DNA of 64,000 nt, from positions 16,029,427 to 16,093,426 of the forward strand of contig OX442417.1 of the NCBI GenBank assembly GCA_949361645.1. The letters are read 5' to 3'. Shown here one piece after another: positions 4,457 to 46,951 of this stretch. The first letter of the stretch is position 1, and every line of letters starts with the position of its first letter. Under the pieces are notes generated by a model that worked only from the letters and a program-made list of their open reading frames with translations, made no database searches and was not told the origin of the DNA. This DNA comes from Spongilla lacustris. Lineage: Eukaryota > Porifera > Demospongiae > Spongillida > Spongillidae. The position numbers and the translations under genes are program-made.

Positions 4457-6353
<1,897 letters not shown>

Positions 6354-6637
6354 TACCTCCTTGATCAGTGGTAGTGTGTGTGCGTAAGTGTGCAACAAAA
6401 AGGTTCTATTGCTAGATTTATAGACACTTCTTTACATTTTTAAATTACAAGAACAGTGCTATATTTAGTAACAAGGTGTATGACATAATGGGGTTGCACC
6501 AGGTGCATGTTCTACACAGCAGTGGGGGGGATATCAATCCTTGCACTCCAAGGGACAGCTAGGGTGCCTGGGTACGTACATGTTAGTGGAAACATTCACC
6601 ACACACGACATCAAAGGAGTTCAACATCAAAAGGTGT

Positions 6638-8683
6638 TCAGCGTTGCCAGACAAGAGACAATGAGTGTGACAGATCGTTGAGGGAGGTGTCCAACAGGAA
6701 CTGCATCTTGAGGATGTTGCCAAGTGTTGTGTCCCTCTGCTTGGCCACTGCCGATACCATAGCCGCCTGCTCATAGGCCAGGTAGTGCTGGAGTGCCCTG
6801 GCCGGTACCGGTTCTTGGAACCACTTGGGAGGTAACCATAGTAACGCCTGGCACAGGATAAGTCCCGTGTGGACTGTCATACGAGCTCTGGGGTCATGTG
6901 CCAGGAGCTGTTGGGCCAACCACAGCAGGGTCACTGAGCGGGCTGAAGCAGGGTCAGTTGCAAAGGGGAGGAGGTCTCTGTGGGCGTAGCCCTGAGTGAG
7001 CAGTCTGGGATTGCGCTCAAAAGGGTGTGGCTCTCCCATCATGTTGTAGATAAGGCAACCCAGAGCAAAGCTATTGACCAGGCTGCAGTCGAGGGTCTTG
7101 GAGGAGTGGTTGGGGGCTGTTACCACTTCTGGTGGGGCAACAGATATGTTCGACCATTTCAACTCGCTCAGATTGTACATGTGCCACTGTCCTGTGATGG
7201 GAGGTGGTCTTTGTAAGACACTGTGGAGATCGCCAATGGCAACTAGCCACTCTGAGCCATGAGGTGTGGCACAGAGAGTATCCATGGTAACGTTCCTGTG
7301 GCAGATGCCATTGGAATGAAGGTATGCAATAGCAGAAAAAATCTGAACAAGGCAGGAGAGCACTAAATGGAGATAGGCTTTTGGCGTCAGAAGCTTGCTC
7401 TTGTCTTGAAGGAGGTACGTCAGTGGAATGGCTTCACCGTGATCTTTGAGGAAATAAAGGGTGCCACAAGAGTGGAGGAGTGTGGAGGGGGAGGTGCCCA
7501 GGCGGGCCCTCACCAGCCGGAGATGGGGGTGGGGCAGCAGGGACCTACACACCTCCATCTCTCTCTCTGCTGTCTGAAAGGACTGTGTAACCTGTAGGAT
7601 GAAAGGTTTGATCAACAGTACATGGCTGTGGCTACATGTACATGCATGGAATGAATACAGGTGTGTTTAAATGAGGCTGGCACAAGCTTGTTGTATAGTC
7701 ACGTGATGGGCCCACTTCCATTTAGCTACTTGGCAACTTTACATGTGCGAGGAATGTACACACACAAACGTCCCTCCACAGTACACACTCACCTCTTCCA
7801 CAGTGAGGGCGGTGCCTTTGTAGACGACCTTAGACCCGGAGACACGTTGTACCCACGACCAGTCAGACAGGGTCCACAGGTTCTCCGAGCACGAAATCTT
7901 CTCTATACTCTCCGCTACGATGCCGCGTAGCGTGGTGCTTATGAGGTCTACTATCTCCTTATGGAGCTGGCCGCTGTTAACCTCTTCGTGTGGTTCCGCT
8001 AGATTTACTGCCGTGCCTTCAACCTGTTCGTCGTTATTTGACTCCTCCACTCGAAGTGGAACCGCCACTGACTCGCTCTCTTCACCAGATTCATCTTCTG
8101 CGGGAGCCTCTTGCTTGACCTTAATCCTCCTCTTTCTATTGCGGCACCACTTGGACGAGGAGCGTCTAGGCTTTGGAAATACGTGTACTGAGGTTTCAGC
8201 TACATCACAGCCTACGGCGCACGTGACGGAGTGCGCTCGAGTCTGCGCGCGGTATTCCTCGGCTTCGCTCACCGCCTCGGGGAGACCTTTCCTCGGTACG
8301 TTGTACTTTTCTAGGTATTCATCGTATGGACACAGGTAGCCAGCAGTTAACCACGCACTGTATTAAATAATATACAAAAAACGATAGGTTAGTACGACAG
8401 GTTACGTACGTAGCTATCTATAGGCCTACGTGATGTCACGTACATGAACACGTGCGCACACTTACTGGTCATGGGAACCGAAAAACATGATGTAGAATTT
8501 GTTGTTAGGTGCCTTGGACCCTCGCGGCACGCTCTCGACCTATAACGCATTGCTGTTATCTAAACGTGCTCCGTTTCCTTTCAGGAACAAGTGGGAGGTG
8601 CCCCCCTACAATACCTTAGCGGGCCATGGCGGGTAGCCACGGATCTTGGCCCATACCAAGTCCTTCTCCTTGAACTGGTCCAT
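6638..8683 (-). CDS. PWWP domain fused to PEAK/PRAG1-like pseudokinase
   Basis: Four exons on the minus strand: 8615-8683, 8466-8539, 7793-8357, 6638-7591. Phases agree and the product is 553 residues. Residues 1-80 form a PWWP domain: KDLVWAKIRGYPPWPAK, then KFYIMFFGSHDHAWL, PYDEYLEKY and PEAVSEAEEY, closest in layout to the GLYR1/HDGF type that binds H3K36-methylated nucleosomes. A basic and acidic linker follows (RNRKRRIKVK, then DESGEESES). From about residue 190 the sequence is a PEAK1/PRAG1 (NKF3) pseudokinase: N-terminal helix SGQLHKEIVDLIS, HRN in place of HRD, no DFG, VAPPEVV, FALGCLIYNMMGEPHPFE, and the C-terminal helical bundle around ILCQALLWLPP and NILKMQFLL. No VAIK lysine is evident. 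The long third exon encodes both the end of the PWWP domain and the pseudokinase's first helix, so the fusion is seen within one open exon. A role linking chromatin and kinase-scaffold function is inference only. Confidence 0.85.
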
Positions 8684-9703: not shown

Positions 9704-11198
9704 TAGGCGGATCTGGGGGGGGAGGGGGCGGGTGCCTAGGGTGCCCGGGCAAGTCCAGTGAATAGTTAATTTATTAAATTACTTTATTCTACCGTGGCGC
9801 GTTTTATGAAACGCCAAAGTATAGCACAGTGAATTACAAAACAAGAATAACATTCAAAGAAAAGACACAAAAACGAATGCTAAAAAAATGCTAGGTCCTC
9901 TTAGACATAAGCTTGATGCTCGAACGCCAAAGTACCATCGCTTCGGCGCAAAGCGAAGAGCATAATTTGAAATCGGGATCCATGACGAAGCTAACTTCTG
10001 GCGATAGTTATCATTATTAATCACATGAAATTTCAGTACTTTTAAAATTTTAAACGGTGGCCCATATTTGCATCCGAACTTCCACAGCGCGTTTGCACGT
10101 AATGTCGTATACGTATTGTTTATGCGGATTTAATATACAGCAACGCGGAACTGAAACAACAGGCTACATGTTAAGCAGAACGGAAACAACGGGCAACAAC
10201 GTTCAACTGACTGAAGCAACAGGCAACAACGTACAACAATTGGAAATGGAAAGAATGTTACTGACTAGCTAGATATAGATAAGATCGCCAAGTTACTGAA
10301 TAAAACATGTATTCTTCGCTAACTTTAAGGTAAATTAAAAAAACCGGACCTTCTCTGTGAGTTCAGTGGTGATATATAGGATTTGAAGGCAATGGTGGTG
10401 TAAAAAGGAAGGGAACAAGGGATCAATGATGATATGAAAAATAAAATAGTCCTATATTTAGCAACGTAAAATGTACGTACATGTACTACAAAAGTGCTAA
10501 ATGTAGGACTATTTTATTTTTCATATCATCATTGAACCCTTGTTCCCTTAACACCACCATTGCCTTCAAATCCTATATACCACCAAATTTCTCACAGAGA
10601 AGGTTTTTATTTAGTTGTAATTAACCTACATCTAGTGAAATTGTGGCATGGGTACAAAAATGAATGAAACAAGTAATAGGTGTAGTGCCCAGACCGTACA
10701 CATTGGATTACAAGTATACATGTACAACTACTTGAGCAAACTAAGTCTATGACCAAGTTCTAAACCATTTGATCGTTTTGAGTCCTGTCAGATACAGGAT
10801 ACTCATGATTTGCTAACATGTAGCCTCAATACATTTTGACCACTGAAGTGAGAATGCCAATGAATTCTGATGTGATTTTCAAAAGTGTTCCTATTCTGAG
10901 TTATGCACGGTCAAGAACAACGAGAAATGCGAGGGACTGGGGACGAGTTTAGACAAGCGTTTTTTTCTCTACAACCCTGAACCACGTGGTTTTTTGACAT
11001 GAAACTGCTTGTTTTTGACTGCTTGTTGGATGATGACAAAGAGCTATGCGATCCGATTGATAGGAGTCCCTTTTTAATGACTTCATAATCAAGGTCAAAT
11101 TAACACTCGATACTCAAATGAATAAGAGCTGTTAAATGTGTGCCCTCCCTTCATTAATATTCATGTCACCACTCTGCCAAAAATCCTGGATCCGCCTA
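9704..11198. mobile_element. non-autonomous hAT-like element with nested MITE
   Basis: TAGGCGGATCTGG at the left end and CCTGGATCCGCCTA at the right end form inverted termini of the TAGGCGG type, like those of the element at 245-4356. No clear target duplication is visible and no transposase is encoded. It carries a nested palindromic MITE at 10337-10610. Confidence 0.55.
10337..10610. mobile_element. palindromic MITE, family P copy 1
   Basis: Long near-perfect inverted arms containing GGATTTGAAGGCAATGGTGG and GGGAACAAGGG meet around a short spacer with GTACGTACATGTAC. Related copies are at 21321-21570, 22681-22959 and, decayed, near 44430-44630 and 50470-50650. Confidence 0.85.
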
Positions 11199-11779
11199 TA
11201 TAAAAAATAAGTAGAATTTGTGGACACCAATACTAAGGAAACAAAGAATTACAAAAATTATACATAATTACTTTCTATATATAAAATCATTTAGCCAATA
11301 CACCTGCTTAAGAAATTGCTAATTGTAGGTACTTTGGTGCTTACATCTGCAATATTAATTTGAATTAAATGTTGTTATTAAGTTTCAACCTTACTTTGTA
11401 TGTATATGGTAACAGTGTCCTTTTGGAGGGGGACTCCCCTGTTCTTTTTGTAAGGGACTGATGGTTTAGCGTTTTTGTTTTTTTTTTAATTAAGAGTATG
11501 GTACCTAACATAACCGCATTAACATACAGTATGTCAATTCAGTGCTGATTTTATTGGCTGTCACCCAACTATCCAAAGTCAAGGGGAAATTATATGCTAG
11601 TTGGCTTGTCATTTCAGGAATTTATATTAAAATTACCCCCAGTAATCACAACCTGCAGCACTAAATAGGGGGGTTACAACAGTTGTTCAGCAATGGAGAA
11701 AATATATATATATATGACAGCTGGATGCCTGAGTATGTACATGTTAGCAAACATTTTAACATTACACATCAAAAGGTGT
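11199..11779. other. intergenic, no gene seen
   Basis: AT-rich sequence downstream of the second pseudokinase gene. About 11230-11345 repeats 9530-9660. No gene is recognised. Confidence 0.6.
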
Positions 11780-13750
11780 TCAGCGTTGCCAGACAAGAGA
11801 CAATGAGTGTGACAGGTCGTTGAGGGAGGTGTCCAACAGGAACTGCATCTTGAGGATGTTGCCAAGTGTTGTGTCCCTCTGCTTGGCCACTGCCGATACC
11901 ATAGCCGCCTGCTCATAGGCCAGGTAGTGCTGGAGTGCCCTGGCCGGTACCTGTTCTTGGAACCACTCAGGAGGTAACCATAGTAACGCCTGGCACAGGA
12001 TAAGTCCCGTGTGGGCTGTCATACGAGCTCTGGGGTCATGTGCCAGGAGCTGTTGGGCCAACCACAGCAGGGTCACTGAGCGGGCTGAGGCAGGGTCTGT
12101 TGCAAAGGGGAGGAGGTCTCTGTGGGCGTAGCCCTGAGTGAGCAGTCTGGGATTGCGCTCAAAAGGGTGTGGCTCTCCCATTACGTTGTAGATGAGACAA
12201 CCCAGAGCAAAGCTATCCACCAGACTGCAGTCGAGGGTCTTGGAGGAGTGGTTAGGGGCTGTTACCACTTCTGGTGGGGCAACAGATATGTCTGACCATT
12301 TCAACTCGCTCAAATTGTGCATGTGCCTTTGACCTGCGATGGGAAGGGGTTTTTGTAGCGCTTTGTGGAGATCGCCAATGGCAACTAGCCACTCTGAGCC
12401 GTGGGGTGTGGCACAGAGAGTATCCATGGTAATGTTCCTGTGGCAGATGCCATTCAAATGAAGGTATGCAATAGCAGAAAAAATCTGAACAAGGCAGGTG
12501 AGCACTAAATGGAGATACGCTCCTGGTGTCAGCAGCTGTCTCTTGTCTTGAAGGAGGTACGTCAGTGGAATGGCTTCACCGTGATCTTTGAGGAAATAAA
12601 GGGTGCCACAGGAGTGGAGGAGTGTGGAGGGGGAGGTGCCCAGGCGGGCCCTCACCAGTCGGAGATGGGGGTGGGGCAGCAGGGACCTACACACCTCCAT
12701 CTCTCTCTCCGCTGTCTCAAAGGACTGTGTAACCTGTAGGATGAAAGGTCTGATCAACAGTACATGGCTATGACTATGAAATGCATTCCACACACATGCA
12801 AATGTGCCAAGTAGCTAAATGGAACCAGTGGGCAGTGTGGCTGGGCCCCCATCACGTGACTATACAACAAGGCGAGCCGCATTTGTACACACCCTTATTA
12901 GTACACCCGCATTGGCACACACAAACGTCCCTCCACCGTACACACTCACCTCTTCCACAGTGAGGGCGGTGCCTTTGTAGATGACCTTAGACCCAGCGAC
13001 ACGTTGTACCCACGACCAGTCAGACAGGGTCCACAGGTTCTCCGAGCACGAAATCTTATCTATACTCTCCGCTACGATGCCGCGTAGCGTGGTGCTTATG
13101 AGGTCTGCTATCTCCTTATGGAGCTGGCCGCTGTCTGCATAAGCGACCCGGGTGGTAGTGGCGGGAACGCAAGGGAACTCTTCCACTTCGTTGTTCGGCA
13201 GGTTCGCGTAGTCGAGGAACGCATCTCGTTCCGAGTCCGTCAGAAATGTACTGAGTGTGCGCGGTGGTTTCTCGGGCGGCAACTTCGCGAACGATTGGTA
13301 ACTAGACCTAGCTCTTTCGGCTGTGAACGGTACGTCAGTCGCCAGTGTATTCGCCTTCTTTTTAACAGAGCAACGCTTGGCTTCTGTAGAAGCTTGCCTG
13401 GGAGGCGAAGGCGGTGGAGAAACGAGCTTCCTCCTGCTGCTGTGCGGTTTTAGGCGGCATAGAAGAGCGGTCGCACGAGGCCACCGCTCACGTGAGCCCC
13501 TTTGTGCGCGATCGGGCTCTTGCCCTTCCGCAATTTTGACCACTGCATACGGCTTGACCACTTCGGTAGGAACCTTCACGCAAGTACTGCCACCGCTTTG
13601 CGAAAGCTCGGAGCGATTTTTGGGGTTGGGTTTTCGTTCCATTTCATCCTTGTCTTTAGCTGGGTGATGTTTTGACCTGTGCTGGTAGCAGTTTGTACAA
13701 GTACTCGGCCGCCAAAAGTTTGGGCGGAAAATGCTGCAGCCGCTTGACAT
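11780..13750 (-). CDS. PEAK/PRAG1-like pseudokinase, tandem paralogue without PWWP
   Basis: Two exons, 12950-13750 and 11780-12733, give 584 residues. The 954-bp kinase exon has the same length and splice phase as in the neighbour at 6638-8683 and the proteins are nearly identical from SGQLHKEI onward, so the two are recent tandem duplicates. The pseudokinase marks are the same: HRN, no DFG, VAPPEVV, GCLIYNVMGEPHPFE and a PEAK-type C-terminal helical bundle. The first ~205 residues are different: a Cys/Lys-rich start (MSSGCSIF), basic and proline-rich stretches (VSPPPSPPRQ), a PPEKPPR SH3-type motif and DAFLDYANLPNNEVEEF. Long proline-rich leaders with SH3 and phosphotyrosine sites are usual in PEAK-family scaffolds; this copy may therefore keep the ancestral layout. 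The start ATG at 13750 is the first in-frame choice and lies 96 bp from the divergent LRRC71-like start. Confidence 0.85.
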
Positions 13751-17132: not shown

Positions 17133-19861
<2,729 letters not shown>

Positions 19862-21320
19862 GATGCTCTCTCTCCTCGGCCCTGGAACAATATATTACAA
19901 TGCCATGGGTACGAACTAAAACCTCACCCTGGATCACGTGATCAAACCAAAAATAAAATCACAGTGCAAACTTTTAAGTGTACGCGTACATGTATGTAGC
20001 GTATTTTGCAGCAGTGCGGTTTTTGTAATCATGTTGCCCAAATGATTCGAACATACATTCCACGAGACACGCCGACACGTTACCGAACACGCATCGCATC
20101 ACCAAAAATGTCTTTGAAACACGAGATGCCCACTTGTTCAATGCACCATCTGCTATTCGTTGAGTGCATGTACACGGTTCATTAGCTACGTCCGATGATT
20201 AGATTGTTAAATTGCATACCAAATGCTGCGCACAACTTCGAGTGTGGAGTAGATGTATATTTCCAATCATGAATACACAAAGGTTTAGAGATTAGAAAAA
20301 GTAATCGTTCACTGGAGGCACGATCACCAACGTGCTGAATTATGTTTGATAGAAATGCAATGCTGCGCGCGACTCTTGCCTTACGTATGATCACGTGACA
20401 CACGTTGGCATTTCAAGGACGTAGAGCTGAAAGGAGCGGCACAGCAATAGATTATTTTAAGGACACTATATGGCTGATGACTACAGAAATCAGTTGTGTG
20501 TTTCGCTTTAAACCTCGCTTTGTATTGCGTCTAGCTCACTTCAGTCGAGTCACTTGTTATAGACTTCCTCGATTATACTATAGCGTTAGTATAAAAACGA
20601 CGAGTCAAAATCATCTCGCTACTTCAAAGTATTAATATCTAAAGATATATATACTTACTGAGCCATCAGGCTAAACAGAACACTGCATGGGAAAAGCCAT
20701 CACCATAGCATATATACTTCGGAGAAACATGAGAGAGCATCCGCTGTACACAAGTAAACAAGCCGCCAGACCACGCGAAAGACCGCAGCGTGCGCGGAAG
20801 CAGAAAATGCAATGCATGCAAAATCCTAAGGCCATATTGTCAGTCATGCCGGCTGATCCCATACATTTATGGCGTTGCTCTTGCATCTATAATTATAGCA
20901 CAATCTCAGTTCCCGATAATACATGTACATAAGCGTACAGGTGATTGTACTGATGCACATACGTGACCGGTTATATATATAATATTATATATATATATAT
21001 AAAGTCAAGACTAATCGACACGATAGAGTATTCATTATTCCATCGCCATGGAAATGCAATACCAAAAAAAAAAAGAATCGTGCTCACGAGATAGAAAAGG
21101 CCTATACATGTAGCTTTAAAAATCAACTTAGCTAAATTTAGAACTAGGCCTTTTCCATCACGTGAGCATGATTCGTGATCAGCTATCCTCTTGAAGGCTT
21201 CTCTTGTATAGGAGTAGGCAAATGGTATGGCTATTTTGTGGCTTTTCTTAGCCTAATTGTCTTGCGGTTTTATCACGAATCAGAGTCCTGTACGCCGCAT
21301 ATTTGGCAGAAGTATATTGA
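19862..21320. other. upstream/intergenic, no gene seen
   Basis: Contains the putative 5' flank of the G-alpha gene starting at 19861, an AT microsatellite near 20975-21000 and an imperfect inverted repeat at 21073-21176 (GAATCGTGCTCACG against CGTGAGCATGATTC, with AAAGGCCTA against TAGGCCTTT). No coding sequence is recognised. Confidence 0.6.
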
Positions 21321-21570
21321 AACAAGATATAAAAACATTCTCTCTGAGAAAGTTAGTGGTATATAGGATTTGAAGGCAATGGTGGTGTAAAAAGGAAGGG
21401 AACAAGGGATCAACGATGGTACAAATTTTTGAATAGTTATATTTAGCACTTTCGTAGTATGTATAAATTTTACATTGCCAAATATAGGACTATTCAAAAA
21501 ATTTGTACCATCATTGATCCCTTGTTATATACCACTAACTTTCTCAGAGAGAATGTTTTTATATCTTGTT
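21321..21570. mobile_element. palindromic MITE, family P copy 2
   Basis: Near-perfect palindrome with outer arms AACAAGATATAAAAACATTC and their reverse complement; inner arms share GGATTTGAAGGCAATGGTGG with the other copies. No coding content. Confidence 0.9.
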
Positions 21571-22395
21571 ATAAGTACAATGTACAATGTGTGACAAAAT
21601 CCAGCCGTTGTAATTCCCATGTTTATTGCCTAGCAACACAATGTTTACAATTATGTTACATTTGCAGCTGTTCTAGATCGAAACTCGCGCGCCAAGCTTT
21701 GCCTCTTAGAAGCTCGTTTCTCGTCTGAGTTCAGTTCATAACGCCGCCTCTTAGAAGTTCGCACCGCCACCTCTTAGAAGCTCGGTTCGACTCCAGATTT
21801 GCTATGTACATATCACGAGCAGACGCCCACCTTTGTTCAGCATCAGCATCGTACCGAACTTGGGAGGACTCTAACTCATAGTCTCGATTTAGGACGTATT
21901 CCTCGTGTCGCTTTTTTCTCCTCTTTCGTTCCCGTGAAGGCATTTTGACAACGCCAATAATGGTACCATAAATGTCTAATTATACGTATAGGTATTGTCA
22001 TGGAAACGCTTTTGTCCTCGGACGTAATTATTGCTTCATACCAAACATGTATATCTGACATCAAGGGGCAGTCGGTAGGATTTTTCTAGATTTTTTGGTG
22101 TAACTGGCGCTCTTTAAAACCTTTCCTATCACGAGTTATACTCACCCATAAAGACGACTATGGACAAATCAAGGTCTGAGAACGAGAACTACGACCTTTT
22201 TTGTTCTCTTAAACTAAACGGTTTGGCGACTTGAACAAAGTATGAAAATGATCGTCTTTCCATTGTCGCTCGATAGCAATAAAGAGCTACACTATCCGTT
22301 TCTCGGTTCGTGAGTTATACGCGAATCGCGTATTTTTAATGATTTCATGATACGGCACAAATCCTATATGAGAGTTACTGCCGTAACTCTCGATA
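21571..22395 (-). mobile_element. composite repeat block A with basic coiled-coil ORF remnant
   Basis: This block is repeated as 23040-24246. The minus-strand frame 21731-21943 encodes a 70-residue, Arg/Glu/Lys-rich peptide beginning MPSRERKRRKKRHEEY, with RDMYIANLESNRASKRW. Arg-Ala-Ser-Lys-Arg type repeats like these are common at the N-terminus of Helitron-like and related transposon proteins in sponges; this is a resemblance only, because no Rep or helicase domain is present. A perfect 9-bp-stem hairpin, GAGAGTTAC-TGCC-GTAACTCTC, closes the block at the right. Confidence 0.5.
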
Positions 22396-28409: not shown

Positions 28410-30778
28410 ATGTGCGATTGTTTCCTCGACGAGGAGGCACAATTGGAGAGGACCGTCAGCAAACAGATTGACCGCGAACTGCAACGCGCCAAACAAGAGC
28501 GGGACAAGGAGTACAAACTGCTGCTGCTGGGTACGTCAGCGGCGTGAGTGCTAACAGTCGCGTGCGATCGTAGGACATGACATACTATCTCTTGTTTTGT
28601 TATTTTTTGTTATGTTTTGTTAGTTGTTTACAGTACTTCAACATCTCGTTTGTTTTTCCGTGTGTGTGACAGGTACGGGTGAATCAGGGAAAAGCACATT
28701 CATAAAGCAGATGAGGATCATCCATGGTCAAGGATACTCTGATGCAGATCGTGCTGACTTTCGCTCTCTTGTGTTTCGTAACATTTTCACGGCAGTCAGT
28801 GCCCTCACGGAGGCCATGACATCGTTGAAAATCCCCTTCCAAAATGCGGCAAACAAGGTGCAATTGGTGGCAGAGTGTCGTGTGTTGCAGTTGTCATGTT
28901 AACCATGACTTGATAGGAGTCGGGGACATTGTATGGAAGGAAGAAAGAAGATGAGGTGACTGAGTTATCACAGTCCGATGCGGACAGACTGAAAGCCTTC
29001 TGGGTTGACAGAGGAATACAGTGTTGCTTCGAGAGGAGAAACGAGTTCCAAATCTCAGATTCTGCCAAATAGTATGTGCAAACAGTAGTGATGTGTGGGT
29101 GTAATAGCTGGGACCAGTGGAAGTGTGCCTGTGTGTGCACAAGTTGACCCCGAAAGCAGACCGAACTCGCTACACGTGTGTGCCCAGTAGACAGGCCTGT
29201 TGCAAGGGAAGGGGTGGTTTGAAAAATGTGGCAGTGCTTGCCTGGGTCCCTATATCGTGTGAACCTCCCATATCCCTGTATAGTATGCAGCCCCATATCT
29301 CTATATAGTGTGCACCCCCATATCTCTAGACAGGGTATAATCTAAACCTTAACGCATTTCTAGATAGGGTGTTTGCCAGGGAGGGGAGAATCCCCCAAAT
29401 ATCTGTCAAGTCAGTGCAAGTGCATTCATGTTTAAAATACATAGCATGCCATTGGGAGGGGCTAACCCTTATTATGCAATGTGGGGCCTAACCTTCAAAG
29501 CCGTCTGCACTGTGTGATGTCATGACTGCTTTCCATACCTTTACGGTTGATGACCATTGCCCTTGTCACCACCCCCCCTCCTGGCTAGATCACCCCTCCC
29601 TCCCTCCTGGCTAGATCACCCCTCCCTCCCTCCTGGCTAGATCACCCCTCCCTCCCTCCTGGCTAGATCACCCCTCTCTCCCTTCTGCTTTCCTCCTCCC
29701 CCCCACTTCCCTCCTTGATCCTTTCCCTCTTCCCCTTCATTCCCCTTTCCATCTCTTCTTAGATTCCTCCCCTTTGGATGTAACTCCTCCCCTTTCAGAC
29801 ATAGCTCCAGGCCCCTCCCTAGTCAGCTGGTTATTAATATTGTGTTTCATCACATGTGTCGTATATGTATGGCAAGAGAAGTTAGTCAGGGGAGGAGATG
29901 GTCAAATAAGGATAAGACCATGTGACTGTACATGTACACCACCTCCTCCCATGACCACCTCCTCCCATGACCACCTCCTCCCATGACCACCTCCTCCCAT
30001 GACCACCTCCTCCCATGACCACCTCCTCCCATGACCACCTCCTCCCATGACCACCTCCTCCCATGACCACCTCCTCCCATGACCACCTCCTCCCATGACC
30101 ACCTCCTCACATGACCACCTCCCACATGACTACCTCCTCCCATAACCACCTCATCTCATGACCACTTCCCATAACCACCTCCTCCTCCCATACCACCTCC
30201 TCCCATGACCACCTACACACATCACCACCTCGTCCCCTGACCACTGCTTATATTTGACTGCCTCCTTTCCCCTACCAGTTACCTGGACTCTCTTGATCGT
30301 ATCTGCACTAGCAGTTACCTACCAACCGTTGACGATGTGCTGAGGATTAGGATAGCCACAACAGGCATAGTGGAGTACACATTTCAAATGCGGAAGGATG
30401 TGATTTTTAGGTGAGCAGGAACATCGTCATGGAAGCGCAATTGATCAATGCTCTTTAATTAGAATGGTCGATGTAGGCGGTCAGAGGTCGGAGAGAAGAA
30501 AGTGGATACACTGTTTTGAAGATGTGAAGGCGATCATCTTCCTTACAGCCATCAACGAGTATGACCAGGTCAGTGTGGGAGGGAAAACCCCCTGTAATTA
30601 TGCCCTTGACAAATCAAATGACTGCTCAGTTGATAGAACACCTATAAGGTAGATTAATCTTCTTTTAACCAACGTTGGTTTATTGGTTGCTGTGAAGTCT
30701 GAATAAGGTAAACACTTATTAGGATCAGAGCTCTGGATCTTTCAATGTCCACCCTATTTAGATTAGTGTGCGTGTGCA

Positions 30779-30821
<43 letters not shown>

Positions 30822-32149
30822 ATGTATGTATGCATGTATGTATGTATGTATGTATGTATGCATGCATGTATGCATGCATGTATGTATGTATGTATGCGTG
30901 TATGTATGTGTGTGTATGCATGTATGTTTGTATGTATGTATGTATATATGTGTGTATGTATGTATGTATGTATGTATGTATGTATGTATGTATGTGTATG
31001 TGTGTGTGTGTATGTATGTATGTATTTATGTAAGTATGTATGTATGTGTATATGTATGTGTGTGTATGTATGCATGCATGTATGCATGCATGTATGTATG
31101 TATGTATGTGTGTATGTATGTATATGTGTGTATGCATGTATGTATGTATGTATATATGTGTGTACATGTGTATGTATGTATGTATGTATGTATGTATGTA
31201 TGTATGTGTGTATGTATGTATGTATGTATGTATGTATGTATGTATGTATGTATGTATGTATGTATGTATATGTGTATGTATGGTTATTTGTTCACTCAGG
31301 TACTACTTGAGGATGCAAAAGTAAACCGACTGCAGGAAAGCTTGGCATTATTTGGAACCATCCTTCGCTACCCTTTCTTCCTCAAGTGTGCCATCATCCT
31401 CTTCATGAACAAGACAGACCTCTTTGCAGAGAAGATAATTAAGTCCAACCTACAGCAGTACTTCCCAGAGTACACAGGTACATCCCACCTCCCTCACATT
31501 CCACCTCCCTCACATCCCACCTCCCTCACATCCCACCTCCCTCACATCCCACCTCCCTCACATCCCACCTCCCTCACATCCCACCTCCCTCACATCCCAC
31601 CTCCCTCACATCCCACCTCCCTCACATCCCACCTCCCTCACATCCCACCTCCCTCACATCCCACCTCCCTCACATGCCACCTCCCTCACATGCCACCTCC
31701 TCACATCCCACCTCCCTCACATCCCACCTCCCTCACATCCCACCTCCCTCACATCCCACCTCCCTCACATGCCACCTCCTCACATCCCACCTCCCTCACA
31801 TCCCACCTCCCTCACATCCCACCTCCCTCACATCCCACCTCCCTCACATCCCACCTCCCTCACATTCCACCCTCCCTCACACCCCACCTCCCCTCTCACC
31901 TCTGTTATGGCCTCCCCTCACACTCCTCCCCCTCGTGCCCCTCCCCTTCACACCTCAGGTCCCCAGCACGAGGTGGAGCCTGCTCAGCTGTTCATTCTGC
32001 AAAAGTTTAAAGACCAGATAGACACGGAGAGGCTGTTCTCCCATCACTTCACGTGTGCCACTGACACAGAAAACATCAAGCATGTCTTCAAAGATGTCAA
32101 AGACCAGATCCTCCAGGAGAACATTGACACCATATTCAACAACGGATGA
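28410..32149 (+). CDS. G-protein alpha subunit, Gq-like, divergent C-terminus
   Basis: Seven exons: 28410-28530, 28673-28857, 28917-29071, 30279-30410, 30463-30568, 31300-31477, 31959-32149, giving 355 residues, the normal G-alpha length. Key motifs are P-loop GTGESGKST, switch I RIRIATTG with the catalytic Arg, switch [14 protein letters not shown] with the catalytic Gln, NKTD and TCATDTEN. The start [10 protein letters not shown] has cysteines at 2 and 4 that suit palmitoylation; there is no Gly2 for myristoylation. The C-terminus, [11 protein letters not shown], lacks the ..YNL. ending that Gq proteins present to receptors. G-alpha subunits bind GDP/GTP at the inner plasma membrane and relay receptor signals. 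Large introns hold (TG/TATG)n and CT-rich minisatellites. Exons 2, 3 and 5 and the intron between exons 2 and 3 are almost the same as in the neighbour at 33825. Confidence 0.93.
29571..29690. repeat. 26-bp minisatellite
   Basis: Four to five units of TCCTGGCTAGATCACCCC/TCCCTCCC in an intron of the G-alpha gene. Confidence 0.9.
29938..30130. repeat. 16-bp minisatellite
   Basis: About a dozen CATGACCACCTCCTCC units in the same intron; open frames on the minus strand here are repeat artefacts. Confidence 0.93.
30772..31285. repeat. (TATG/TG)n microsatellite, ~510 bp
   Basis: Long mixed TG and TATG array filling the intron before the exon at 31300. Both strands are open for over 100 codons because of the repeat. 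Confidence 0.97.
31478..31900. repeat. 16-bp CT-rich minisatellite
   Basis: About 25 units of ACATCCCACCTCCCTC start right after the donor of the exon ending at 31477. Confidence 0.95.
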
Positions 32150-32339
32150 TCCAACTTGTACCTCACCCTCACCACCCTAATAGTTGTGCAGTTGTAAAGG
32201 TGCTGTTTGTGTTTGTACTGAGGATACAGTAAGCTAATTATCGTTGGACTGGTCACCACAATGGACCCACACAATGTGATGTATCTGTTGATATATGGAG
32301 TAGCATTATAGGACAGTGGAGGAAAGACCAAATATGATG

Positions 32340-45313: not shown

Positions 45314-46132
45314 TTAAGATGGTATTCCAAACTGTTCTTGTACAGGAAAGATTTGGTACATCCACTGTTGCTGCACCTCAACCTCTCTCCAGTATGAATC
45401 CTGCAGTGCATCTGACCTAGTAAATGATCTTTTACAGAAGCAGTTGTAAATTTTCTCTCCAGTATGAGTGAGCATGTGTGTTTTCAGATTTGACTGTTGA
45501 GAAAATGCTTTTCCACATTGTTGACATTGATGAGGCTTCTCTCCAGTATGAGTGAGCATGTGTCTATTAAGATCTAACTGTCCCTTTCCACATTGTTGAC
45601 ACTGATGTGGCTTCTCTCCAGCATGAGTGAGCATGTGTCTTTTCAGATTTGACTGTCGTGAAAATCCCTTTCCACATTGTTCACACTGATGTGGCTTCTC
45701 TCCAGTATGAGTGAGCATGTGTGTTCGCAGATTTGACTGCCGTGAAAATCCCTTTCCACATTGTTCACACTCATGTGGCTTCTCTCCAGTATGAGTGAGC
45801 ATGTGTGTTCGCAGATTTGACTGTTGTGAAAATCCCTTTCCACATTCCTGACACTGATGTGGCTTCTCTCCAGCATGAGTGAGCATGTGTCTTTTCAGAT
45901 TTGACTGTCGTGAAAATCCCTTTCCACATTCCTGACACTGATGTGGCTTCTCTCCAGTATGAGTGAGCATGTGTGTTCGCAGATTTGACTGTAGTGAAAA
46001 TCCCTTTCCACATTGTTCACACTGATGTGGCTTCTCTCCAGTATGAGTGAGCATGTGTCTTTTCAGATCTGACAGTAGTGAAAATGCCTTTCCACATTCT
46101 TGACACTTATGAGGTCGTCGTCCTGAAGCCAT
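45314..46132 (-). CDS. C2H2 zinc-finger protein, damaged C-terminal end
   Basis: A single minus-strand open frame of 272 residues starting MASGRRPHKCQECGKAF. Eight Kruppel-type fingers joined by TGEKP linkers follow, most with the helix QSNLRTH or QSNLKRH, so they would contact similar DNA triplets. Finger seven is short (CQQCGKGQLDLNRH) and lacks its Phe-Ser segment. A ninth finger begins at KIYNCFCKRSF but then loses frame; the neighbouring frame carries RIHTGERLRCSNSGC and SFLYKNSLEYHLKSC up to a stop at 45280, which clearly belonged to two further fingers. Near-identical fingers suggest recent internal duplication. The protein would be a nuclear DNA-binding factor. No KRAB, SCAN or BTB domain is seen. 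It lies between the two copies of repeat D. Confidence 0.8.
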   Translation of the reverse strand: MASGRRPHKCQECGKAFSLLSDLKRHMLTHTGEKPHQCEQCGKGFSLQSNLRTHMLTHTGEKPHQCQECGKGFSRQSNLKRHMLTHAGEKPHQCQECGKGFSQQSNLRTHMLTHTGEKPHECEQCGKGFSRQSNLRTHMLTHTGEKPHQCEQCGKGFSRQSNLKRHMLTHAGEKPHQCQQCGKGQLDLNRHMLTHTGEKPHQCQQCGKAFSQQSNLKTHMLTHTGEKIYNCFCKRSFTRSDALQDSYWREVEVQQQWMYQIFPVQEQFGIPS

Positions 46133-46951
46133 TTTTACCTGCAGACTGAATGATTTGTTATGAAAATCTGATTGCCCAAAAATATCAGAACTGCATGCAC
46201 AGATATCACAGGTCTAAAGTGTTACGTTTTGGTGCTTGTTTCATTTCTGCAACCATAACATTTATGAGCAACACATATTAGAGCAACATCCTAGCAGAGA
46301 TAATATATATAGGGATTGGAAACGAGCTGCCATAAGTGTTTCCATGACCCTGACAAGCAGCAACACTATATGTACTAAGCCCTGGTGACACATGTACAAT
46401 GACTAGCTGGTGAGGGATTGGAAAAATGGCCTGTGTTTAAACGAGCGTATCAACGTAATCAGGAACACAGATGCATGGGTGCTATTCTGTATAATCCTGT
46501 TGGAGTACCAGTTCTCTAAAACAGGTATGTGGATCCGATCCGCCGCTGGCTAAACACACATGTCTCACGTGAGTCGTGATCACTGCACGGTCCAAGGTTT
46601 GTTCTTATTTTTTTCTGAGATAAAATAGCCAGGGTGGACGAACGTTATTTGCAGTACCATCGTATTCGAAAGAACTATGTTATTAACATACCTTACTATG
46701 CACTCTATCTGGTGTTAAAAGGTACGTAGAACGGTTTAACTTTTAATGATTCACCGATAAATAGTAATATAATACGAGCGTGCGCATCTACATGTAAGGG
46801 GCCAGCCTAGGACAACTGCAAATGCGCAAGTTAAGTTAGTAGGCCTACAAGATAGAAACTTAATTACGCGGCCCGCATATTGCATTGTTGTCCATTGGTA
46901 AGCCAGTGACAGTGTTGTAATACTGCGCGCCTCCACTTCCACATGCACAAG
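46133..46951. other. no gene seen
   Basis: 5' flank of the zinc-finger gene; may contain its promoter or a non-coding first exon. Nothing recognised. Confidence 0.5.

Follow-up and report, generated by a model that had tools for sequence, protein, structure and literature searches.

A probable chimeric gene joining an HDGF-like PWWP domain to a PEAK-like pseudokinase in Spongilla lacustris

How did a nucleosome-binding PWWP domain come to precede a dead-looking kinase fold in one open reading frame, and does the join make a gene? The question is raised by gene A, which lies in a stretch of 64,000 nucleotides from Spongilla lacustris (contig OX442417.1, positions 16,029,427 to 16,093,426), hereafter the window, whose own coordinates are used throughout. 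In our judgement gene A is probably a chimeric coding gene, composed of an HDGF-like PWWP front and a pseudokinase derived from its neighbour, copy B; its product would most likely be a nuclear docking protein held on nucleosomes. The combination of a PWWP domain with a PEAK-like pseudokinase is a new domain architecture, and gene A has the look of a signalling protein naturally rerouted to chromatin. No PWWP-pseudokinase fusion is reported in the literature searched, as judged from titles and the opening parts of abstracts.

Gene A is made of four exons:

8615-8683, minus strand: gene A exon 1, start codon and first half of the PWWP core (KIRGYPPWPAK)
8466-8539, minus strand: gene A exon 2, middle of the PWWP domain (FYIMFFGSHD)
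7793-8357, minus strand: gene A exon 3, end of the PWWP domain, basic linker, join and start of the pseudokinase part, in a single open frame
6638-7591, minus strand: gene A exon 4, bulk of the pseudokinase, C-terminal helices and stop codon
8252-8665, minus strand: PWWP domain, gene A residues 7-83, with two introns within (Pfam; coordinates converted by hand)

The three introns are all GT-AG, their phases agree and the spliced frame encodes 553 residues, in line with the four phase-compatible exons of a preliminary description made from the sequence. That description had also called a complete PWWP domain, and a join lying within exon 3 rather than produced by linking exons. Both calls hold: in a hidden Markov model search the Pfam PWWP profile was covered from 1 to 91 of its 93 positions (E = 4e-14), and exon 3 is open throughout, spanning the end of the PWWP domain and the start of the pseudokinase part. 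Pfam further assigned residues 218-478 to Pkinase (E = 6.8e-11). A poly(A) site between the two halves, which the description regarded as speaking against a fusion, was not found: of the two hexamers scanned, neither AATAAA nor ATTAAA occurs there, on the minus strand from 8755 to 5990.

Judged by sequence comparison, the N-terminal PWWP domain of gene A is of the HDGF/PSIP1 type. Against the PDB it matched 56 sequences at E up to 0.01, the top 17 of which were PSIP1 or HDGF-related (best about 7e-18). The aromatic cage of PSIP1 consists of M15, Y18, W21 and F44 (PMC3663649); the corresponding positions in gene A, taken by hand from the PDB alignment, are I14, Y17, W20 and F42, three of the four being identical. 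Hand alignment also places K13, R15, K37, R70 and K71 of gene A at the PSIP1 DNA contacts K14, K16, K39, R74 and K75, with the contacts K56 and K73 not conserved. The linker that follows holds RKRRIKVK, which by eye resembles a nuclear localisation signal (the pattern K[KR].[KR] gave no match). Gene A is thus like the HDGF-related proteins and PSIP1 in its N-terminal PWWP domain, in a linker that combines a basic cluster with acidic stretches, and in the retained Y, W and F of the cage; it differs from them in that the linker runs into a pseudokinase, without an HDGF-type tail. The LEDGF integrase-binding domain was not found in the genome, but the search was silent on all 14 controls and is thus not conclusive.

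The pseudokinase half has a sister gene, copy B, on the same strand and about 5 kb upstream of gene A, with the same pseudokinase and no PWWP domain. The two loci share a duplicated unit:

6554-7977, minus strand: gene A copy of the duplicated unit; the 5′ edge, 7977, is the fusion point inside a coding exon
11716-13134, minus strand: matching unit in copy B, taking in the intron and 3′ flank
12950-13750, minus strand: copy B exon 1, N-terminus without PWWP, then the start of the pseudokinase part (start at 13750 chosen as P0008 begins there)
11780-12733, minus strand: copy B exon 2, bulk of the pseudokinase
7979-8350, minus strand: HDGF-like portion of gene A exon 3, homologous to protein P0010 up to EPHEEV

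BLAST aligned 7977-6554 to 13134-11716, a stretch of 1.42 kb, at 88.5% identity. Since the intron and part of the 3′ flank are included, the copy is, on this alignment, one made from DNA and not from spliced RNA. The preliminary description was right about the frame and the two domain calls of the fusion but missed this origin, the pseudokinase half being a segmental duplicate of the adjacent, PWWP-less copy B. Ten candidates were scored in the 248.6-Mb assembly for the pseudokinase part, and five matches were reported: four correspond to the exons of gene A and copy B, and the fifth is weak (E = 5.5e-4).

The other side of the join was located with public proteins. A search with exon 3 returned five: P0006 (the same exon), P0007 (copy B, as is the public protein P0001), P0008 and P0009 (B-type proteins of relatives) and P0010. 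The last is a 278-residue frame on a 1401-bp contig from another source; its match to gene A covers 8350-7979, beyond which the frame leads into an unrelated tail that holds no kinase. The end of this homology at 7979 and the edge of the duplication at 7977 come from two independent comparisons, and thus fix the join within two bases. P0010 gave no PWWP match against the PDB and Pfam, its frame beginning after most of the domain, and its 40 pattern matches in GTDB genome contigs were all unconfirmed, as expected for an animal gene. An earlier search of public proteins had given five matches, among the 7995 candidates scored for sharing most words; residues 1-175, compared at whole-protein length, had no match among 503 scored candidates.

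P0006 lies on a 955,653-bp ENA contig and carries the fused exon from about gene A residue 77. It differs at a single residue (T for A), apart from an initial Met read from the start codon. The copy B proteins P0001 and P0007 are listed with a contig of identical length. The contig appears to be a second haplotype, or a separate assembly, from the same species. An assembly artefact was considered and judged unlikely, this second contig bearing the same fused exon.

Queries with the PWWP half and with P0010 (E up to 10) recovered gene A and no second HDGF-like copy among the best candidates scored in the genome. The P0010 tail was unmatched in the window at E up to 1, although a tail of such low complexity could be missed. 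From these two results the HDGF-like gene seems to have been converted into the chimera rather than duplicated.

Four other PWWP loci in the genome resemble the PWWP domain of gene A only weakly, the best tblastn E at each locus ranging from 7e-6 to 0.003. A GLYR1-type donor was also considered. Besides three further NAD_binding_2 matches on C19 and C12, there are NAD-binding matches on C2; those on C2 were read by eye and belong to a HIBADH-like gene adjacent to an MCM-like one, and the 9.9 kb around them showed no PWWP match of note.

Downstream, the end of a prolyl-oligopeptidase/DPP-like gene (about 4600-6353, plus strand; identity by eye) points towards gene A. Its 3′ end stops some 200 bases short of the duplicated unit, which leaves little space for a lost HDGF-like tail.

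What gene A has given up is visible in copy B, whose N-terminal region contains two short motifs:

13259-13276, minus strand: PEKPPR, a PxxPxR SH3-ligand-like motif of copy B, in the same place in P0002 and P0009 (coordinates converted by hand)
13202-13210, minus strand: YAN, a YxN Grb2-SH2-like motif of copy B, also in P0002 and P0009 (coordinates converted by hand)

The N-terminal region of vertebrate PEAK proteins is reported to hold a CrkII SH3 ligand, PxLPxK, and, in PEAK3 and PEAK1, a Grb2 SH2 ligand, pYxN (PMC10279719). In a motif scan, gene A has no YxN 5′ of its join, and its sole PxxPx[KR] there is a PxxPxK within the PWWP core. Since the N-terminal SH3- and SH2-ligand motifs were not found, gene A is classed on its sequence as derived from PEAK and not among the ordinary PEAK proteins. 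None of the five proteins scanned has the 14-3-3 motif Rxx[ST]xP, which PMC10279719 also describes. P0002, P0008 and P0009, all from other sources, share the N-terminus of copy B, and on this recurrence we take the architecture of copy B as ancestral and that of gene A as derived. P0002 (539 residues) is continuous over the position of the copy B intron, between VEE and VTQ, as a spliced transcript would be.

Is gene A under selection as a coding gene? Over the shared coding stretch, gene A and copy B differ at 53 of 1134 bases and 24 of 378 residues. Nonsynonymous (dN) and synonymous (dS) divergence were 0.032 and 0.10 by NG86, 0.036 and 0.079 by YN00, and 0.032 and 0.10 by LWL85. With all 53 substitutions taken as neutral, simulation predicts 35.5-37.6 nonsynonymous codons (stops included), against the 24 amino-acid differences seen (P at most 0.0005; 2000 simulation runs at each of three transition biases, ranging from 8 to 2). 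When polarised by the outgroups P0002 and P0003, the 24 changes divide into 10 on gene A, 9 on copy B and 5 unplaced. If gene A is assigned half of the substitutions, as few as 10 changes on it are seldom reached in neutral simulation (P 0.0003-0.003), which suggests constraint on gene A itself.

These figures bear on the first alternative, that the DNA join is real and in frame by chance, gene A being a partial duplicate that truncates the HDGF-like gene, non-working and still undecayed. The fusion is met only in sequences of this species and from DNA alone, and its stop is not closely followed by a standard poly(A) signal; 3 of the 10 changes on the gene A branch (E242Q, R301S and D409N) strike positions identical in P0002, P0003 and P0004; and the open frame itself is weak evidence, the probability of no stop after 27 neutral substitutions being 0.36-0.39. 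Yet the amino-acid changes are too few for two neutral copies and are about equal in gene A and copy B where polarised, the noncoding parts have diverged beyond the coding parts, the PWWP domain and splice sites are complete, and the identical fused exon recurs on a second contig. We consider a non-working duplicate unlikely.

The second alternative concerns the kinase part only and leaves the chimera unaffected: the PWWP domain would have been joined to a PINK1-like fold, the pseudokinase being a PINK1-derived branch. PINK1 is indeed a high-ranking match in sequence and fold. It scores above PEAK in a single-sequence search and equals it in a profile search, and in the fold comparison, run with the relative P0002 as query and not gene A itself, it falls within 1 Z unit of PEAK1. 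In addition, the C-terminal region and N-helix of PINK1 have been likened to those of SgK223 and SgK269 (PMC8828467). However, PEAK1 holds rank 1 in both Foldseek and VIA, and the C-terminal 152 residues place PRAG1/SgK223/PEAK1 (6e-8 to 2.5e-6) ahead of PINK1 (4e-4). The active site is degraded as well, with HRN for HRD and GDL at the expected DFG (alignment by eye), whereas PINK1 has HRD and DFG; and the N-terminus of copy B carries the PEAK-like PxxPxR and YxN. A PINK1 derivation is improbable, and a PEAK origin of the kinase part likely. The preliminary assignment to the NKF3/PEAK-type pseudokinases stands for the degraded kinase fold and for the C-terminal part, nearest to PRAG1; it is less secure where PINK1 leads (single sequence) or ties (profile, fold).

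PEAK proteins consist of an N-terminal disordered region, a SHED domain and a pseudokinase (PMC10279719), and a single PEAK gene is described in early animals, from placozoans to lancelets (PMC8699254). With the family (PEAK1/SgK269, PRAG1/SgK223/Pragmin and PEAK3) gene A shares a degraded kinase fold with C-terminal extension helices, and copy B also shares PxxPxR and YxN in the N-terminal region; in gene A a PWWP domain and basic linker stand where that region would be. In the model of P0002 the C-terminal helices have good confidence, and the N1 helix (165-180) has a predicted local distance difference test (pLDDT) score below 50. By hand mapping onto the residue numbers of SgK223 (PMC5660093), A1360, M1362 and A1367 are kept in gene A, and M1363, F1366 and W1382 are replaced by V, V and I. 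The more distant pseudokinase relatives P0004 and P0005, outside the window, retain HRD although they lack DFG; the catalytic Asp may thus have been lost later, within the lineage leading to gene A and copy B.

A third alternative, of two proteins, namely a PWWP protein ending in intron 3 (the exon 3 frame reads into it, with a short tail after VEE and a stop at 7739) and a pseudokinase begun downstream (exon 4 has an in-frame Met, MEVCRS, at which P0001, the equivalent copy B exon, starts, though by a non-splicing gene caller), is highly improbable, given that the intron 3 splice-site sequences are the same as in copy B, that P0002 is already joined at the equivalent position, that both poly(A) hexamers are absent over the range scanned, and that exon 3 already codes for the beginning of the pseudokinase part.

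We return to gene A as a chimeric coding gene. Sequence comparison shows who the parents were and where they were joined, that the frame is intact, that the PWWP domain was retained and that the B-type N-terminus was lost. By the same comparison, gene A arose through a DNA-level copy of 1.42 kb of copy B: the 3′ part of exon 1, the intron behind it, the final exon and a portion of the 3′ flank were fused, with the frame preserved, to exon 3 of an HDGF-like PWWP gene, whose own tail they replaced. The encoded product keeps the PWWP domain and basic linker on the HDGF-like side and, on the PEAK-like side, the pseudokinase and the helices that flank it, but it lacks the N-terminal SH3- and SH2-ligand-like motifs of the PEAK-like parent. 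It would most likely be nuclear, with the PWWP domain on nucleosomes and some preference for methylated H3K36, and the pseudokinase would serve as a non-catalytic docking module, possibly dimerising with itself or with the product of copy B.

Several observations weigh against this account. Gene A is known here from genomic DNA alone. The nearest AATAAA/ATTAAA past its stop (6638) is at 5990, about 650 bases on and inside the neighbouring gene; in copy B, by contrast, one lies at 11555, 225 bases behind the stop. If all 5 unplaced changes are put on gene A (15 in total), the neutral P rises to 0.10-0.22. The intron is more diverged than the synonymous sites (117 of 196 aligned sites identical between 7592-7792 and 12734-12949 in a global alignment, against a dS of 0.08-0.10). 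The cage residue M15, whose mutation M15A abolished the H3K36me3 specificity of PSIP1 (PMC3663649), is replaced by Ile (I14). Finally, the N-helix of PINK1 is reported to yield a monomer (PMC8828467), and PINK1 is structurally tied with PEAK1, which tells against the SHED dimerisation that gene A may have. Our confidence is no higher because constraint on gene A is unproved, the intron has diverged and the poly(A) signal is distant. The excess divergence of the intron suggests gene conversion of the exons, which is plausible; dating of the duplication by dS was dropped, since intron and flank exceed synonymous divergence and suspected conversion makes such a date unsafe.

The preliminary description took PEAK proteins for cytoplasmic scaffolds. 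They are not only cytoplasmic: they can reportedly enter the nucleus to induce transcription, although the authors of the same paper saw no clear nuclear PEAK2 in their own cells (PMC9221080). Nuclear action would therefore not be foreign to the family. In Drosophila, the PWWP protein JASPer places the kinase JIL-1 on H3K36me3 chromatin (PMC6877644). That system, too, pairs PWWP with a kinase, and shows that a PWWP protein can put a kinase partner on active chromatin. It differs in that JASPer and JIL-1 are separate polypeptides and JIL-1 is active, whereas gene A would be one chain with a dead-looking kinase.

A bolder proposal, which we hold to be doubtful, is that the gene A product sits on H3K36-methylated gene bodies by way of its PWWP domain and, through SHED-type pairing with the product of copy B, brings the SH3- and SH2-bound partners of the latter there. 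If true, a PEAK-type scaffold would have moved to chromatin in one step, tying tyrosine-kinase signalling directly to transcribed chromatin.

Often, domain fusions come to notice only when the event is old and neither the parents nor the join can be made out clearly. At this locus the PEAK-like parent sits 5 kb off, the HDGF-like parent has a known relative, and the fusion point, in a coding exon, is resolved to within two bases. What changed can also be interpreted: adaptor-docking motifs were lost, a nucleosome-binding module was gained and the pseudokinase was retained. The locus thus offers a natural domain-swap experiment, asking whether a PEAK-type pseudokinase can be transplanted as a docking or dimerising unit, and whether being addressed to chromatin is by itself enough for a new function to arise.

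Elsewhere in the window, two genes resembling G-protein alpha subunits lie at about 17140-19880 (minus strand) and about 30700-32150 (plus strand), as read by eye from the sequence and open reading frames. Two similar palindromes with near-identical arms, at about 10330-10600 and 21340-21580, look by eye like a small inverted-repeat transposon. A 299-codon open frame at 45314-46213 (minus strand) encodes, again by eye, many near-identical C2H2 zinc fingers.
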